Shown piece after piece: positions 6,555-37,776 of a stretch of DNA of 64,000 bases. A model generated the notes under the pieces. It saw nothing but the letters and a program-made list of their open reading frames with translations, ran no database searches and was not told the origin of the DNA. Each line of letters opens with the position of its first letter. Positions within the stretch are counted from its first letter, which is position 1. The stretch comes from Pyrinomonadaceae bacterium (GTDB lineage Bacteria > Acidobacteriota > Blastocatellia > Pyrinomonadales > Pyrinomonadaceae): assembly GCA_026129865.1 (NCBI GenBank), contig JAHCHG010000003.1:1-64000 (forward strand), in the 5' to 3' direction. Both the position numbers and the translations under genes were made by a program.

Positions 6555-6785
6555 CGTTGATAGTTGATAAGTGAAAGTGGATAGTTGATAGATGAAAGTG
6601 GATAGTTGATAGGTGAAAGTGGATAGTTGATAGATGAAAGTGGATAGTTGATAGATGAAAGCGGACAGTTGATAGGTGAAAGTGAATAGTTGATAGATGA
6701 AAGTGGATAGTTGATAAGTGAAAGTGGATAGTTGATAGGTGAAAGTGGATAGTTGATGAATGAAAGTGAATAGTTGATAGTTCTC
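6555..6785. repeat. 21-bp minisatellite, about 10-11 copies
   Basis: Near-identical 21-bp units of the form GTGGATAGTTGATAGATGAAA run from about 6555 to 6785, differing mostly at one or two positions (AGATG/AGGTG/AAGTG). Because 21 is a multiple of 3, long ORFs run through on the minus strand and would encode a repeated INYPLS peptide; nothing supports translation. It lies directly after the helical-protein gene. Confidence 0.93.
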
Positions 6786-6813: not shown

Positions 6814-7045
6814 CGGTAACGCGACCAAAAGGAAGCGTCCCAAATCGAGGGCAGAAACGCGACCACAAGGGAGCGTGCCGAATCAAGGGCAGAAACGCGA
6901 CCGCTAGGGAGCGTGCAAATCTCCCGCACCCAAACAATAGCGCCGAACGCACGGCAGAAACGCGACCGCTAGGGAGCGTGCAAATCTCACGCGCCCAAAC
7001 AATAACGCCCAACGCACGGCAGAAACGCGACCGCTAGGGAGCGTT
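6814..7045. repeat. R1 repeat cluster a (half-elements)
   Basis: Five copies of the R1 half-element in the orientation GGCAGAAACGCGACCGCTAG followed by GGAGCGTGC, starting near 6814 (degenerate), 6849, 6888, 6953 and 7019. The last three are spaced 66 bp apart with conserved linkers (CAAATCTC.CGC.CCCAAAC), so this part is a 66-bp tandem repeat. It lies 300 bp upstream of the RAYT gene. Confidence 0.85.
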
Positions 7046-7046
7046 C

Positions 7047-7290: not shown

Positions 7291-7347
7291 ACTCACATTC
7301 ATCAACCTCTTTATGCTAAAATCCGCAAAAAGACTTTCTTCATCATC

Positions 7348-7872
7348 ATGACAATCGAACCCTGGGACGACAACGACAGCCCGCTTGCATATCTCATCAC
7401 CTTTCGCACCTACGGCTCTTGGCTGCACGGCGACAAGCGTTTTTCCGTAGACACTCATGAAAACAAGAACATCTACGGATTGCCGAAAAGAGAGCCAAAT
7501 CCAAACCTCGAAGCACGGATGAAGCAAAATTTTCGACATCCGCCGGTCGTCTTAACCGAAGCTCAGATCGCCGTCGTTTACGAAGCCGTCGCCGAACATT
7601 GCCGCTTCAAAGGCTACACGCTGCATGCCGTAAATGTCCTCTCAAATCACGTGCACGCCGTCATTTCCGCAGACAAAAAACCTGACAAATTGATAAACGA
7701 ACTAAAATCCTATTCCACCCGCGCACTTCGCGCCGCACGTCTGTCCTTCAGCGATGAAAAGATCTGGTCGCGCGGCGGCAGCACGAAATATCTCTGGAAA
7801 GAACGCAGCCTGGCGCAGGCAATAGAATACGTCCTCTACGGACAAGGCAACATAAAGATCGAAGACGATTAA
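7348..7872 (+). CDS. REP-associated tyrosine transposase (RAYT, Y1_Tnp/HUH family)
   Basis: 174 aa. A single-strand-specific HUH endonuclease related to IS200/IS605 TnpA. The N-terminus has the family block AYLITFRTYGSWLHGDKR. The metal-binding HUH pair is His101 and His103 in LSNHVHAVI. The likely nucleophilic Tyr is Tyr122 in ELKSYSTRALR, and the C-terminus carries WSRGGSTKYLW and EYVLYGQG, typical of RAYTs. RAYTs are single-copy enzymes thought to spread REP palindromes. Here the gene is flanked on both sides by R1 clusters (6814-7045 and 7908-8417), the arrangement expected of a RAYT with its substrates. There is no accessory TnpB and no mobile-element boundary. The reading frame is intact, so the enzyme may be functional. 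Confidence 0.93.
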   Translation: MTIEPWDDNDSPLAYLITFRTYGSWLHGDKRFSVDTHENKNIYGLPKREPNPNLEARMKQNFRHPPVVLTEAQIAVVYEAVAEHCRFKGYTLHAVNVLSNHVHAVISADKKPDKLINELKSYSTRALRAARLSFSDEKIWSRGGSTKYLWKERSLAQAIEYVLYGQGNIKIEDD

Positions 7873-7907: not shown

Positions 7908-8417
7908 AAACGCGCAACCCAAGGGCAGAAACGCGCGCGCAAGCAAGCGTGCCGGTCGCTCGCCGTAAAGAGAGTCTGAGAATGCGCACTGGTCGGCACG
8001 CTCCCTAGCGGTTGAAATGTGGGGCAGAAACGCGCGCGCAAGCAAGCGTGCCACCCGCTCGCTGTCAAGAGAGTCTGAGAATGCGCACGTTGGCACGCTC
8101 CCTAGCGGTCGCGTTTCTGCCCTTGAAATGCGGGGCAGAAACGCGCGCGCAAGCAAGCGTGCCACCCGCTCGCCGTCAGGAGAGTCTGAGAATGCGCGCA
8201 GCTTGGCACGCTCCCTAGCGGTCGCGTGTCAGCCCTTGAAACGCGGGGCAGAAACGCGCGCGCAAGCAAGCGTGCCACCCGCTCGCCGTCAAGAGAATCT
8301 GAGAATGCGCACTGGTCTGCACGCTCCCTGGCGGTCGCGTTTCTGCCCTCGGGGCGCGGAGTTGATCGATGCGGGAGTTGTTTGCACGCTCCCTGGCGGT
8401 CGCGTTTCAGCCTTTGA
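7908..8417. repeat. R1 repeat cluster b, four tandem palindromic modules
   Basis: Four modules of about 99-113 bp begin at about 7923, 8023, 8134 and 8247. The best one (8023-8121) has left arm 8023-8052, a 39-nt apical part and right arm 8092-8121. The outer 12 bp (GGCAGAAACGCG with CGCGTTTCTGCC) and inner 8 bp (AGCGTGCC with GGCACGCT) pair perfectly, and the 10 bases between do not (CGCGCAAGCA against CCCTAGCGGT). The apical parts share TCGC.GTCA.GAGAGTCTGAGAATGCGC. The first module is shortened at its right arm. Two extra right arms lie at 8316-8345 and 8385-8417. ORFs through this DNA are not genes. Confidence 0.93.
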
Positions 8418-26660: not shown

Positions 26661-26700
26661 AAACGCTGGTATTTGAATTTAACGGGGCGGTATCGTAAAA

Positions 26701-26824
26701 AATTCCCCTCCTGAGATTAGGAGGGGTGCCCGAGGGGCGGGGTGGTTGAGCGCGTTTAGGGTTCTTAAGTTTTAGCGGGAAGATCGAACCACCCCCAACC
26801 CCTCCTTATCCAAGGAGTTGAGTT
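26701..26824. repeat. R2 multi-hairpin repeat, solitary copy
   Basis: One copy of the R2 element, detailed at 34531-34651. The left hairpin (CCCCTCCT with AGGAGGGG), the GGGGTGGTT / AACCACCCC long-range stem and the right-hand CCTCCTTATCCAAGGAG hairpin are all present. The right end is slightly eroded (AGTTGAG instead of AGGGGAG). Confidence 0.85.
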
Positions 26825-26881: not shown

Positions 26882-27171
26882 GGCACGCTCCCTAGCGGTC
26901 GCGTTTCTGCCTTTGAAGAGGAGGGCTGAAACGCGCGCGCCAGCAAGCGTGCAAAAGGTTCGCTGTCAGCCGAGTTTGGGAATGCGGTGGGGTGGCACGC
27001 TCCCTTGCGGTCGCGTTTCTGCCTTTGAAATGGAGGGCTGAAACGCGCGCGCTAGCAAGCGTGCAAAGGGTGCGCGGTCAGCCGGGTAGAGCCTATCGAG
27101 GATGCTGATTTACGTCAGCCGGGTTTGGGAATGCGGAGGGGTGGCACGCTCCCTTGCGGTCGCGTTTCTGC
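26882..27171. repeat. R1 repeat cluster c
   Basis: About two and a half R1 modules in forward orientation, with right arms at 26882, 26993 and 27143 and left arms near 26925 and 27036 (here GGCTGAAACGCGCGCGC). The second apical part is lengthened by about 45 bp containing a duplicated GTCAGCCGGGT. Lies between asnB and the nucleotidyltransferase gene. Confidence 0.88.
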
Positions 27172-27237: not shown

Positions 27238-27966
27238 ATGAAAGGTGTAGTTTTAGCGGGCGGGTTGGGTTCACGGCTCAAGCCTTTGACGAAGGTTACT
27301 AACAAGCATTTGCTGCCGGTTTATGATCAGCCGATGATCTATTATCCGATCAAGACGCTGATAAATGCCGGGATCGACGATATTATGATCGTTACCGGCG
27401 GAAATTCGGCGGGCGATTTTTTGAAGCTTTTGGGCAACGGTAAGGATTTCGGCTTAAAGCATGTCAATTACACTTACCAGGAAGGCGAAGGCGGCATTGC
27501 CGACGCGCTCAGCTTGGTCGAACATTTTGCGGACGACGAACCGGTCTGCGTTGTTCTGGGCGACAATATAATTGAAAACAACATCCGCGCGGCGGCGGAC
27601 GATTACAGAAAACAGGGCGGCGGCGCGAAGATACTTTTGAAAAAAGTGCACGATCCGCAGCGCTTCGGCGTGCCGGAGCTCGAAGGAGACCGCGTTTTAA
27701 GGATCGAAGAAAAGCCGTCGGAGCCGAAATCGGACTTCGCCGTTATCGGGATATATTTCTACGACAACACGGTCTTTGACATTATCAAAACGCTGAAACC
27801 TTCGGACCGCGGCGAGCTTGAGATCACCGATGTAAACAACCATTACATCGACCGCAACGAAATGACCTGGGCAGAACTAGACGGCTGGTGGACCGACGCG
27901 GGGACATTTGAAAGCCTGCTTCATGCGACGAATCTTGTGGCGAAGTCAGGGGCTAATAAGGTCTAG
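27238..27966 (+). CDS. sugar-1-phosphate nucleotidyltransferase, RmlA-like
   Basis: 242 aa. The nucleotide-binding start MKGVVLAGGLGSRLKPLTKV and KHLLPVYDQPMIYYPI are those of glucose-1-phosphate thymidylyltransferases; VVLGDNI near residue 104 carries the metal-binding Asp. At 242 aa it is of the short RmlA-like type (long RmlA proteins have about 290 residues and an allosteric C-terminus). It forms NDP-sugars, most likely dTDP-glucose, for the adjacent epimerase and GTs. The stop codon TAG lies within the first unit of a 9-bp repeat array. Confidence 0.9.
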   Translation: MKGVVLAGGLGSRLKPLTKVTNKHLLPVYDQPMIYYPIKTLINAGIDDIMIVTGGNSAGDFLKLLGNGKDFGLKHVNYTYQEGEGGIADALSLVEHFADDEPVCVVLGDNIIENNIRAAADDYRKQGGGAKILLKKVHDPQRFGVPELEGDRVLRIEEKPSEPKSDFAVIGIYFYDNTVFDIIKTLKPSDRGELEITDVNNHYIDRNEMTWAELDGWWTDAGTFESLLHATNLVAKSGANKV

Positions 27967-28046
27967 CGAGTCTCGTTAGTCTGGCGAGTCTAGCGAGTCT
28001 GGAGAGTCTGGCGAGTCTAGCGAGTCTGGCGAGTCTGGAGAGTCTG
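27961..28046. repeat. 9-bp repeat array 1 (GCGAGTCTA family)
   Basis: About nine units of a 9-bp sequence (TCTAGCGAG / TCTGGCGAG / TCTGGAGAG). The array begins at the last codons of the nucleotidyltransferase, whose final Val-stop is GTC TAG inside the first unit. Confidence 0.9.
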
Positions 28047-28590: not shown

Positions 28591-29184
28591 ATGAAACCAT
28601 TCGAATCAAAAGACCCGCAAGACTCGCAAGACTCGCTAGACCCGCAAGACTCGCAAGACTCGATAGACTCGCAAGACCCGCAAGACTCGCAAGACTCGAT
28701 AGACTCGCCAGACTTCATCCGAGCAAAGATCAATGACGTCGTCGTTTACCCGCTTCGCAAATTCGTTGACGAGCGCGGGTGGCTGGCGGAGTTGTTTCGC
28801 CATGATGAGCTGGACGAGCAATTCTATCCGGCGATGGCTTATATTTCTTTGACGGAGCCGGGCGTAACGCGCGGTCCGCATGAGCATGTCGATCAGGCTG
28901 ATCTTTTTTGTTTTCTCGGTCCGGGCAACTTTAAGCTAAGGCTGTGGGATAACCGCGAAGATTCTTCCACCTACCGGCATGTGATGACGATGTTCGTCGG
29001 CGAAGACAACCCGCAGGCGGTGATCATCCCGAAAGGCGTTGTTCATGCATATAAAAACGTCAGCGCGCTGCAGAAAGGAATGGTCATAAACTGCCCGAAC
29101 CGCCTGTTCATGGGCGAAGGGAAAAAAGAAGAGATAGACGAAATAAGACACGAAGACGATCCGGAGACCTTGTTTAAAGTCTAG
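28591..29184 (+). CDS. dTDP-4-dehydrorhamnose 3,5-epimerase-like protein with repeat-derived N-terminus
   Basis: 197 aa. Residues 50-190 are an RmlC-type cupin: VVYPLRKFVDERGWLAELFR, PGVTRGPHEHVDQADLFCFL (His pair) and IIPKGVVHAYKNVSA. It likely epimerises a dTDP-keto sugar for the locus. Residues about 8-41 are built of D-S/P-Q/I triplets encoded by in-frame 9-bp repeats (28611-28713), and no alternative start codon lies between the repeat and the cupin, so the extension is probably translated. The final KV-stop again reads GTC TAG at the edge of another 9-bp array. A ribosome binding site (AAGGAA) lies upstream of ATG 28591. Confidence 0.85.
   Translation: MKPFESKDPQDSQDSLDPQDSQDSIDSQDPQDSQDSIDSPDFIRAKINDVVVYPLRKFVDERGWLAELFRHDELDEQFYPAMAYISLTEPGVTRGPHEHVDQADLFCFLGPGNFKLRLWDNREDSSTYRHVMTMFVGEDNPQAVIIPKGVVHAYKNVSALQKGMVINCPNRLFMGEGKKEEIDEIRHEDDPETLFKV
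28611..28713. repeat. 9-bp repeat array 2, inside the epimerase coding sequence
   Basis: About 11 in-frame copies of GACTCGCAA-type units (also GACCCGCAA, GACTCGATA, GACTCGCCA), the reverse complement of array 1. Codon triplets read Asp-Ser/Pro-Gln/Ile/Leu. Confidence 0.92.
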
Positions 29185-29403
29185 CGAGTCGGGGGATAGT
29201 CTAGCGAGTCAGTTAGTCTAGCGAGTCTGACGAGTCAATTAGTCTAGCGAGTCAGTTAGTCTAGCGAGTCGGAAGATAGTCTAGCGAGTCTGGCGAGTCA
29301 ATTAGTCTAGCGAGTCCTAATACTTTGTTAAGCAAGACTCGCAAGACTCAACAGACTCGCCAGACTCGCAAGACTCAATAGACTCGCCAGACTCGCCAGA
29401 CTC
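29179..29403. repeat. 9-bp repeat array 3, inverted halves
   Basis: The left half (29179-29316) carries GTCTAGCGAGTC-type units with short variable joints. The right half (29333-29403) carries the complement, GACTCGCAAGACTCGCCA. The halves could fold into a large hairpin. The array starts at the epimerase stop codon and ends 6 bp before the next gene's ATG. Confidence 0.9.
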
Positions 29404-29409
29404 AAACCC

Positions 29410-30627: not shown

Positions 30628-31456
30628 ACGGAGCGCAGAAACGCGCGCGCCAGCAAGCGTGCACACTCGGGGCAGAAACGCGCGCGCCAGCAAGCGTGCA
30701 CACTCGAGGGCAGAAACGCGCGCGCCAGCAAGCGTGCAGCAAGTCAAGGGCAGAAACGCGCGCGCCAGCAAGCGTGCAGGTAGTTCGCCGTCAGCGGAGT
30801 CCGACAATGCGTAGAGGTTGGCACGCTCCCTGGCGGTCGCGTTTCTGCCTTTGAAATGAGGGGCAGAAACGCGCGCGCAAGCAAGCGTGCGGAATGGTCG
30901 CTGTCGTAATAGTTCGAGAACGCGCACAGGTTGGCACGCTCCCTAGCGGTCGCGTTTCTGCCTCTGAAATGGAGGGCTGAAACGCGCGCGCAAGCAAGCG
31001 TGCGGAGTGTTCGCTGTCGAAATAGTCCGAGAATGCGCACATGTTGGCACGCTGCCTATCAAGCAAATTCCGGGAATGCGCACAGGTTGGCACGCTCCCT
31101 AGCGGTCGCGTTTCTGCCTTCGGGCGTCGCGCTTTTGCCTTTGCGCTCTTTGCGTCTTTTGCTTTGCGACCTTTGCGGTTAAGAAAGTATTTCTCCGATC
31201 TGACCCGATGCGCGGCGCGGACAAAGATTTTTACCGCAAAGGACGCAAAGGGCAGAACGCAAAGGTCGCCAAGGGGTAATTCGCTCTCAAATATTAATCT
31301 CTGCGAAGTTCGGCACGCTCCCTAGCGGTCGCGTTTCTGCCTTTGAAATGAGGGGCAGAAACGCGCGCGCAAGCAAGCGTGCAGGTAGTTCGCCGTCAGC
31401 GGAGTCCGACAATGCGTAGGGGTCGGCACGCTCCCTAGCGGTCGCGTTTCTGCCCT
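30628..31456. repeat. R1 repeat cluster d, with CGCAAAG repeats
   Basis: Four successive R1 left arms (about 30640, 30673, 30712 and 30750) precede a right arm at 30822, then further left/right modules to 31113 and one more at 31311-31456. Between them (31128-31180 and 31229-31277) are two oppositely oriented CGCAAAG repeat stretches. The cluster fills the whole 920-bp gap to the convergent S2P gene. Repeat-derived ORFs on both strands are not genes. Confidence 0.9.
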
Positions 31457-33099: not shown

Positions 33100-33606
33100 A
33101 ACGGGCAGAAACGTGCGCGCCAGCAAGCGTGCAGCAAGTCGAGGGCAGAAACGCGCGCGCCAGCAAGCGTGCCGATCGCCCGCCGTCAGCGGTGTCCCAC
33201 AACGCGCGCCGGTTGGCACGCTCCCTAGCGGTCGCGTTTCTGCTTTGTAGGGCAGAAACGCGCGCGCCAGCAAGCGTGCAGGTAGTTCGCCGTCAGCCGA
33301 GTTTGGGAATGCGGTGGGGTGGCACGCTCCCTAGCGGTCGCGTTTCTGCCCTAAATCAGGCAGAAACGCGCGCGCAAGCAAGCGTGCCGATCGCCCGCCG
33401 TCAGCGGTGTCCGAGAATGCGCGCCTGTTGGCACGCTCCCTAGCGGTCGCGTTTCTGCCCTATATCAGGCAGAAACGCGCGCGCCAGCAAGCGTGCCGAT
33501 CGCCCGCCGTCAGCGGTGTCCGAGAACACGCGCCTGTTGGCACGCTCCCTAGCGGTCGCGTTTCTGCCCTCTTGCGCACGCTCCCTGGCGGTCGCATTTC
33601 TGCCTT
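33100..33606. repeat. R1 repeat cluster e
   Basis: Five left arms (about 33101, 33142, 33250, 33359 and 33468) and six right arms (about 33214, 33320, 33429, 33539, plus a short-spaced extra at 33576). Apical parts show GCCCGCCGTCAGCGGTGTCC, a variant of the sequence in cluster b. The cluster lies between HU and the YpfJ-like gene, ending 55 bp before the latter's start. Confidence 0.9.
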
Positions 33607-33659
33607 TTTGCCCGAGAGTGATACCATTTACAAAATTAAATTTGGGAGAATGATCATTT

Positions 33660-34496: not shown

Positions 34497-34530
34497 AATT
34501 TGGTTTTTGGGAGAAAACGCGTGATCTACA

Positions 34531-34651
34531 AACTCCCCTCCTGAGATCAGGAGGGGTGCCCGAAGGGCGGGGTGGTTGAAAATCTCTGCCGTATAGGATT
34601 TCGCGGGAAGATCAAACCACCCCCAGCCCCTCCTTATCCAAGGAGGGGAGC
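34531..34651. repeat. R2 multi-hairpin repeat, upstream of the DUF559 gene
   Basis: About 121 bp. Structure in order: CTCCCCTCCT/AGGAGGGG hairpin, GCCCgaaGGGC hairpin, a long stem GGGGTGGTT with AACCACCCC over about 38 nt of variable apical sequence, then CCCCTCCTT/AAGGAGGGG hairpin. Both ends therefore carry the same CCCCTCCT palindrome. Bases 34652-34802 are otherwise unremarkable. Confidence 0.92.
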
Positions 34652-34802
34652 CTAGTATTTGAAATCGTAGACTTTAAAATTGAAGATAGTTGTCCGACCA
34701 ACGTCACAACTTAAAAGAAGATTTTTATAAAATAGGCTTTGATTGGCATCACGGATTTGGTAAACCAAGCTCACACTTGAAATTTTTGATCGGAGGAATG
34801 AT

Positions 34803-35213
34803 ATGCGATCGAACAACTCTCAACAAATTCACAACCGAAAGCGGCTGAAAACCTTCAGAAAAGCACTTCGAAACAATCTGACACCCGCCGAAGCCGGATT
34901 TTGGAACCTGGTAAAGAATAAAAAGTTGGACGGGCGAAAGTTCAGAAGACAGCACAGCGTCGGAAATTATATTTTGGATTTTTACTGCCCGGCTGAAAGA
35001 ATCGCCATCGAACTCGACGGCGAAGGACATTATCAGGATGATAAACGCGTGTATGATTTCGCAAGACGCAAGTATTTGGAGAGTTTGGAAATTCGCGTGT
35101 TGAGATTCCAGAATCGGCTGGTGTTTGAAGATCCTGAATGGGTGCTCGGTGTTATTCGGCTAAATTTCGGATGGCGTGCGACGCAGAATGCTGATTTTAC
35201 GGACAAGGAATAA
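34803..35213 (+). CDS. DUF559 endonuclease-domain protein (VSR-like fold)
   Basis: 136 aa. The domain is clear: LRNNLTPAEAGFWNLVKNKKLDG, FRRQHSVGNYILDFYCPAERIAIELDGEGHY and the tail VLRFQNRLVFEDPEWVL. The Asp of ILDFYC and the Glu-x-Asp of IELDG are the PD-(D/E)xK-like catalytic residues of this Vsr-related fold. The cellular role of DUF559 proteins is unknown. The gene is bracketed by R2 repeats, one copy 152 bp upstream and a tandem array starting 37 bp downstream, which suggests association with the repeat. Confidence 0.9.
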   Translation: MRSNNSQQIHNRKRLKTFRKALRNNLTPAEAGFWNLVKNKKLDGRKFRRQHSVGNYILDFYCPAERIAIELDGEGHYQDDKRVYDFARRKYLESLEIRVLRFQNRLVFEDPEWVLGVIRLNFGWRATQNADFTDKE

Positions 35214-35249
35214 TCTTTTAACTCCTCTATGAAAAATCGGATATTCCAA

Positions 35250-35586
35250 AACTCCCCTCCTGAGATCAGGAGGGGTGCCCGAAGGGCGGGGTGGTTGAAA
35301 ATCTCCGCCTTATCAGATTTCACACGAGGATCAAACCACCCCCAACCCCTCCTTATCCAACGAGGGGAGCTGGAGAGGTCGAATGATTACGTGATAAAAA
35401 AACTCCCCTCCTAAGATTAGGAGGGGTGCCCAAAGGGCGGGGTGGTTGAACACGTTCGCAAAATTTAATGTCCGCCGGATAATCGAACCACCCCCAGCCC
35501 CTCCTTATCCAAGGAGGGGAGCCGGAGAGTTTGAATGCGTACGTGATAAAAGATTCCCCTCCTAAAATCAGGAGGGGAGCCGGAGA
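35250..35586. repeat. R2 tandem array, 151-bp period
   Basis: Two full R2 copies (35250-35370 and 35401-35522) and a collapsed copy (35552-35586) in which the left hairpin joins straight to the right end GGGGAGCCGGAGA. Start-to-start distance is 151 bp both times, and the linkers are also repeated (GAATG..TACGTGATAAAA). The first copy has one base change in its right stem (AACGAGGGG). Confidence 0.93.
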
Positions 35587-37224: not shown

Positions 37225-37776
37225 ACTAATCCTTAAAGGCTGAAACGCGACCGCGAGGGAGCGTGCTTCCACTACGCATTCGCAAACTCGGATGACGGCG
37301 AACTGGTGGCACGCTTGCTAGCGCGCGCGTTTCAGCCCTCATTTCAAAGGCAGAAATGCGACCGCTAGGGAGCGTTCCAACCTGTGCGCATCCTCGGACA
37401 CGGCTGACGGCAGGCGATCAGCACGCTTGCTTGCGCGCGCGTTTCTGCCCTACAAAGCAGAAACGCGACCGCTAGGGAGCGTGCCAACTCGCGCGCATCC
37501 TCGGACTCCGCTGACGGCGAGCTGTCTGCACGCTTGCTGGCGCGCGCGTTTCTGCGTGATATACGGCAGAAACGCGACCGCTAGGGAGCGTGCCAACCCG
37601 TGCGCATTGTCGGACACGGCTGACGGCGAACTGTCTGCACGCTTGCTGGCGCGCGCGTTTCTGCCCTCATCGCAAAGGCAGAAACGCGACCGCTAGGGAG
37701 CGTGCCAACCTGTGCGCATTGTCGGACACGGCTGACGGCGAGCTGTCTGCACGCTTGCTGGCGCGCGCGTTTCTGT
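37225..37776. repeat. R1 repeat cluster f, reverse orientation
   Basis: Five modules in the order right-arm complement (GGCAGAAACGCGACCGCTAG...), apical complement (...GACACGGCTGACGGCGAACTG...), left-arm complement (GCACGCTTGCTGGCGCGCGC...). Module starts near 37230, 37349, 37455, 37565 and 37677, so about 105-120 bp apart. Orientation is opposite to clusters b-e. Confidence 0.9.

Follow-up and report, generated by a model that had tools for sequence, protein, structure and literature searches.

Hairpin-tag repeats flank Vsr-like DUF559 nuclease genes in many bacteria: a likely REP-like mobile system

The association between DUF559 nuclease genes and flanking hairpin repeats is real and far from chance. 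It was met first in the window, that is, the whole stretch of 64,000 nucleotides of Pyrinomonadaceae DNA analysed here, where copies of a repeat named R2 lie on both sides of a DUF559 gene. On present evidence, R2 and DUF559 are likely to form a REP-like mobile system in which a Vsr-type, homing-endonuclease-like enzyme stands in the place of RAYT, cleavage by this enzyme being inferred. The shown basis comprises the association itself, its spread, covariation of protein and repeat across phyla, in-frame units in conserved genes together with an intein-like insert, one dispersed pair ending at hairpins, and conserved active-site residues that are intact; the homing-endonuclease fold is a model prediction. 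The features of the window are as follows.

about 26700..26823, plus strand: solo R2 copy, 7.7 kb from the locus, right arm slightly decayed
34530..34651, plus strand: R2 copy 1, complete
34533-34579: left arm of R2 copy 1, with hairpin CCCCTCCT..AGGAGGGG, small hairpin GCCCGAAGGGC and tag GGGGTGGTTGA
34580-34611: spacer of R2 copy 1
34612-34650: right arm of R2 copy 1, TCAAACCACCCC tag and hairpin
34612..35297, plus strand: 'tags-out' unit, by inference, running from the right arm of copy 1 through DUF559 to the left arm of copy 2
34803..35213, plus strand: DUF559 (PF04480) gene, Vsr-like PD-(D/E)XK nuclease of 136 aa
35249..35370, plus strand: R2 copy 2, complete, 92% identity with copy 1
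35400..35521, plus strand: complete R2 copy 3, forming a tandem pair with copy 2 (period 151 bp)
about 35550..35584, plus strand: lone hairpin unit, about half an R2
about 7300-7869, plus strand: RAYT-like Y1 protein, HVHAVI motif
6856-7046 (plus strand) and 8093-8406 (minus strand): R1 repeat arrays flanking RAYT, inverted

An earlier note, made from sequence alone, had placed one R2 copy upstream of the DUF559 gene, an R2 array downstream and only one other copy in the window (near 26.7 kb). All of this held: copy 1 ends 151 bases upstream of the open reading frame (ORF) and copy 2 starts 35 bases downstream. The R2 core pattern was matched four times in the window and not once in 100 dinucleotide shuffles, and single-stranded folding of the three copies beside the gene gave z values of -5.8 to -7.2 against shuffles. 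Two anatomical claims held in part. The palindromes at both ends were said to be identical; the outer hairpins share their stems but not their loops (GAGATC versus TATCCA). The 'long internal stem' surrounds a spacer of 32-34 nt that is different in each copy. Short-period tandem arrays, mainly of 9-bp and 21-bp units, were also observed in the window (6559-6780, 27961-28046, 28610-28714 and 29197-29405); they are unrelated to R1 or R2.

The home genome (4.40 Mb) has six R2 sites with ten cores in all, and three of these cores flank the DUF559 gene. All ten copies follow one plan: a left arm with the hairpin CCCCTCCT..AGGAGGGG, the small hairpin GCCCGAAGGGC and the tag GGGGTGGTTGA, and opposite it, in inverted orientation, a right arm of AACCACCCC tag plus hairpin. 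The arms read GGGGTGGTT/AACCACCCC, and GTAG is absent. Mean identity of the left arms was 93%, and that of the 32-34 nt spacers was 0.53 versus 0.47 after shuffling, showing that in this genome the spacer sequence is nearly random between copies although its length is kept. Both a structural ruler and captured sequence are conceivable for a spacer of such constant length (L002, L004, L008, L009 and the window). A fixed-length guide (CRISPR- or TIGR-like) was considered and rejected: the tag-to-tag gap ranges from 13 to 92 between genomes, so that there is no universal ruler. In our reading, the building block would be a hairpin (CCCCTCC..GGAGGGG or a variant) with a G-rich tag (GGGGTGGTT, GGGGTGAGG or similar). 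A variable spacer enclosed by two inverted blocks would give the solo, REPIN-like element R2, and a DUF559 gene enclosed by the same blocks would give the autonomous element. By inference, the layout of 34612..35297 equals that of units seen in frame within host genes elsewhere.

The assignment of the enzyme is firm at the level of family (E 7e-29 and 100.3 bits against PF04480, curated cut-off 20.6), and this ORF is the sole DUF559 gene of the home genome. The residues E30, W34, Q50, D59, F60, E70, D72, G73 and H76, invariant among 44 homologues, are all kept in this protein. Its AF2 model (pLDDT 91.7) was matched by Foldseek first to 3hrl, a DUF559 protein of Neisseria, then to I-Bth0305I (3r3p, E 1.8e-4) and more weakly to Vsr (1vsr, E 0.03). 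The claim of a Vsr-like nuclease thus held, and the protein is better described as having a predicted Vsr-like, homing-endonuclease-like (EDxHD) fold; cleavage of a long specific target is an inference. The adjoining genes at the locus are that of a Zn-peptidase and an unassigned ORF. A reading as a defence system was set aside, only weak PADLOC matches (E 0.005 and 0.02) being found.

Enrichment of R2-like repeats beside DUF559 genes of other genomes had been named beforehand as the check, and its absence as the refuting outcome. We compared the 450 bp upstream with the 450 bp downstream of each DUF559 gene, counted a match at 29 bits or more, and used size-matched genes of the same genomes as controls. 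Matching flank repeats were found for 77 of 95 stand-alone DUF559 genes versus 3 of 216 controls (Mann-Whitney p=1e-33). It should be noted that this set came partly from genomes picked for R2. In unbiased subsets, matching repeats lay on both sides of 20/20 stand-alone DUF559 genes in Acidobacteriota and 21/29 in Bacteroidota (12/12 and 17/23 after dereplication at 60% identity). An independent class that had not been used in forming the hypothesis gave 18 of 24 versus 4 of 104 controls (Fisher p=2e-13). Enrichment was therefore very strong in three separate samples as well as in named isolates, the refuting outcome did not occur, and the comparisons with control genes exclude a chance neighbourhood of R2 and DUF559. 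Two further centres labelled Proteobacteria (G336 and G337) drew genomes overlapping the Bacteroidota sample and are not independent phyla.

The named isolates with flanking repeats comprise Neisseria, Azospirillum lipoferum, Deinococcus, Sphingobium, Novosphingobium, Sphingomonas, Sinorhizobium and cyanobacterial plasmids, that is, Cyanobacteriota, Deinococcota and Alpha- and Betaproteobacteria. Plasmid loci of Azospirillum brasilense and Methylobacterium had hairpins on the upstream side only, and the flanks examined of the E. coli DUF559 gene had no repeats. Sequences of the hairpins vary, with a common plan of a C-rich/G-rich stem and often a GGGGTG-type tag. On a Sphingomonas plasmid (L364), a DUF559 gene with inverted hairpins is placed between sufB and sufC. 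In a Neisseria gonorrhoeae record (L480), the gene lies between 114-nt direct repeats with CGTC at the hairpin foot, and dRS3-like sites occur about 2 kb from the locus.

These data bear on a first alternative, that DUF559 is a domesticated host mismatch-repair nuclease of Vsr type and the hairpins act as ordinary terminators or in mRNA stability. In its favour, a role in mismatch repair at methylated sites has been proposed for the Caulobacter DUF559 protein VsrA (PMC12907096), and the E. coli gene has no repeats; both points also count against our own reading. Against it, matching repeats are present upstream too, a situation seen for only 1-4% of control genes; solo copies are dispersed; and DUF559 is patchily distributed (63/297 and 61/118 genomes in the two phylum samples). 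We consider this explanation very improbable. Because of the hairpin association it is untenable as a general account, and it may hold for single domesticated lineages.

The association was also recovered starting from the repeat. Records matched in an exact search of genome contigs for the R2 core carry labels from several phyla, at least Bacteroidota, Nitrospirota, Acidobacteriota, Chlamydiota and Patescibacteria among them; the titles of metagenome-assembled genomes may be wrong. About a tenth of 80 fetched R2-core loci carry DUF559, nearly always less than 200 bp from the repeat (eight by the total and nine as listed, the list including one edge fragment and one gene 663 bp away). Among genomes reached by R2 alone, 47 of 50 encode DUF559. 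The R2-like pattern occurred in 9 of 297 Acidobacteriota genomes, all nine with DUF559 (63 overall), and in 8 of 118 Bacteroidota genomes, all eight with DUF559 (61 overall), with one-sided probabilities of 5e-7 and 0.004, respectively. Restriction to the window's own family, which reduces shared ancestry, gave 0.02. R2 directly adjoined DUF559 in G173, G181, G300, G405 and G452; an adjacency in G157 (contig C27) was left out of the count, its DUF559 match being weak (E 5.9e-4).

A second alternative is that the repeats are only landing sites: REP-like repeats would be made by RAYTs or host processes, and DUF559 genes would insert or home there without spreading them. Consistent with this, 15 of 17 R2-bearing genomes have a Y1/RAYT match, the majority of R2 copies lie away from DUF559, and some IS elements target REPs, ISPpu9 lying within them (PMC8450116). 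However, no RAYT (PF01797) match was present in G300, which has 16 R2 copies and one DUF559 gene, or in G452, in which R2 lies on both sides of DUF559, and none of the RAYT matches of the home genome is near an R2 site. Production of R2 by a local RAYT was rejected on these two grounds. Also against landing sites, the units within leuS, metH and recG have hairpins on both sides of DUF559 while homologous proteins are without the insert, and across phyla DUF559 sequence and type of repeat vary together. We regard this alternative as unlikely. Two of its supports count against our reading as well. One is the usual presence of RAYTs in R2-bearing genomes. The other, that most R2 copies are not beside DUF559, would be expected for non-autonomous copies and is also compatible with other movers.

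The window itself contains the RAYT-like gene listed above with its own repeat, R1 (AACGCGACCGCTAGGGAGCGTGC; 28 near matches in the window). This RAYT is flanked by R1, and no RAYT match of the home genome is near an R2 site; the window therefore contains two families of repeats, and each surrounds a different type of enzyme. The analogy with RAYT and REP drawn in the earlier note thus held, given this RAYT with its own repeat and the two R2-bearing genomes that lack RAYT, whereas action of the nuclease on R2 DNA is still an inference, for binding as for cutting. Near the R2/DUF559 locus, R1 was also observed at many sites as tandem arrays of about 110 bp period (26882-27166, 30635-31448, 33144-33611 and 37235-37775).

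Protein and repeat appeared to be matched. Comparing 17 Acidobacteriota with 55 Bacteroidota DUF559 domains after dereplication, protein identity correlated with flank-repeat similarity (rho 0.262, p=0.0005; 2000 permutations, null sd 0.048 and null maximum 0.160). Such a cross-phylum correlation cannot arise by descent within one phylum, whereas it can through transfer of whole units or through co-evolution.

Further evidence comes from units inside host genes. DUF559 domains were found within long frames for leucyl-tRNA synthetase (two sites), methionine synthase, RecG, HsdR, HsdM and HsdS. Relative to solved structures, there are about 150-160 extra residues between positions 236 and 240 of T. 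thermophilus LeuS and between 515 and 519 of RecG (1gm5), and the insert is absent from homologous proteins of the interrupted leuS, metH and recG. In most in-gene units, DUF559 lies between two hairpins that continue the reading frame; in some, a hairpin is seen on one side only or is degraded. In-frame interruptions were seen in leuS (L218, L220, L241 and L238) and metH (L229 and L234), with one site common to three leuS cases and one common to both metH cases. In two FAD-monooxygenase genes (L020 and L031), DUF559 lies between hairpin repeats, with a Hint match N-terminal to it (E 1e-6 in one of the two genes) and a weak intein match C-terminal to it. In these intein-like inserts, subject to that weak match, DUF559 occupies the slot of an intein's homing endonuclease.

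Signs of movement were also obtained. Two DUF559 loci of G424 (Bacteroidota), at unrelated positions, have 490 bp in common at 85% identity, a similarity bounded on either side by the outer margins of the inverted hairpins. Between two closely related Acidobacteriota, there are indels of hairpin size in the vicinity of DUF559. One stretch of the interrupted leuS region has short matches at five further places in its own genome. No nucleotide-level empty site was obtained for the leuS insertion, the genus being represented by one genome. Inverted hairpins are present at unit ends, and the only pair examined showed no duplication of the target site. Both 'tags-in' and 'tags-out' pairs occur, and therefore the ends of the unit are not uniquely defined. 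The missing empty site, the missing duplication and the two arrangements count against our reading.

The third alternative is pure homing, in which specific alleles (leuS, metH, hsd, inteins) would be cut by DUF559 and homologous repair would copy the gene into them, while the hairpins serve only to limit damage, for example as barriers to transcription or resection or as in-frame linkers. It is supported by I-Bth0305I being the closest fold after 3hrl, by the position of DUF559 in the endonuclease slot of the intein-like insert and by the use of identical leuS and metH sites in different genomes. It is opposed by solo repeats that are dispersed and conserved without the gene, by the two copies at unrelated sites in G424 and by the mostly intergenic position of DUF559-hairpin units. 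We hold it to be very unlikely.

The best reading remains that of a selfish element in which hairpin-tag repeats serve the DUF559 nuclease as ends or targets; each of the steps of recognition, cleavage and copying is inferred, without biochemistry. In this reading, DUF559 would recognise the tag or the extruded hairpin and nick or break DNA, either there or in a target sequence. Repair or replication would then place a copy of the unit, or in trans of a solo repeat, at a new location. Solo R2s would be non-autonomous relatives of the DUF559 element, and read-through of both hairpins may let some host proteins tolerate the insert. A bolder version, towards which the evidence leans only slightly, is that this is an undescribed class of mobile element in many phyla, in which hairpin-tag repeats are the ends or targets of a Vsr-like nuclease that seeds REP-like families in trans and can insert in frame in essential genes, leaving the host protein readable. 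For many palindromic repeats of bacteria, no mover is known. If the proposal is true, a dedicated nuclease other than RAYT would be a direct, testable candidate for this role in one large set of hairpin repeats rich in GC, and would also account for the common unexplained annotation 'DUF559' or 'endonuclease domain-containing protein', as well as the presence of DUF559 within leuS, metH, recG and hsd genes and of palindromic DNA within proteins.

Several known systems resemble parts of this arrangement. No paper tying DUF559, COG2852 or Vsr-like nucleases to REP-like repeats was found in the open-licence PMC literature searched, and within that scope the earlier statement that no description was known held. 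Vsr mismatch endonuclease has a similar fold, but it is linked to a cytosine methyltransferase, whereas DUF559 has a repeat context instead. The EDxHD homing endonuclease I-Bth0305I shares the predicted fold and the conserved E/D/H residues, and DUF559 also occurs in an intein-like insert; however, rather than residing in introns or split inteins, DUF559 genes mostly stand free between hairpin repeats. IS200/IS605 elements and MITEs have subterminal hairpins and short non-autonomous relatives as well, but the R2/DUF559 system is without an HUH or DDE transposase, and the pair examined showed no target-site duplication. CGTC-tagged REPs (dRS3 and rickettsial RPE-4 and RPE-6) are, like the DUF559-flanking repeats, tagged palindromes that are in frame in some genes, reportedly without a dedicated transposase (PMC3733652). 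The Neisseria DUF559 locus does have CGTC beside its hairpin; as a general signature this tag was rejected, CGTC/GACG lying near the stem foot in only 13 of 261 DUF559-flanking hairpins.

The closest likeness is to REP/REPIN-RAYT systems, which also consist of short tagged hairpins with dispersed copies and a cluster flanking one enzyme gene. REPINs have inverted conserved ends with a less conserved spacer between them (PMC3116915), an architecture that R2 meets with ten dispersed copies, inverted conserved arms and a less conserved spacer, and their intragenic copies are known (PMC3733652), as for DUF559 units. On the other hand, the REP-RAYT enzyme is a Y1/HUH tyrosine transposase and its tag is GTAG, whereas the neighbour of R2 is a PD-(D/E)XK Vsr-like DUF559 protein and its tag is G-rich (GGGGTGGTT, GGGGTGAGG). 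Thus, the DUF559-hairpin system appears to be REP-RAYT-like in its working but fails on the defining enzyme and tag, and it places a predicted homing-endonuclease fold in a different genetic context.
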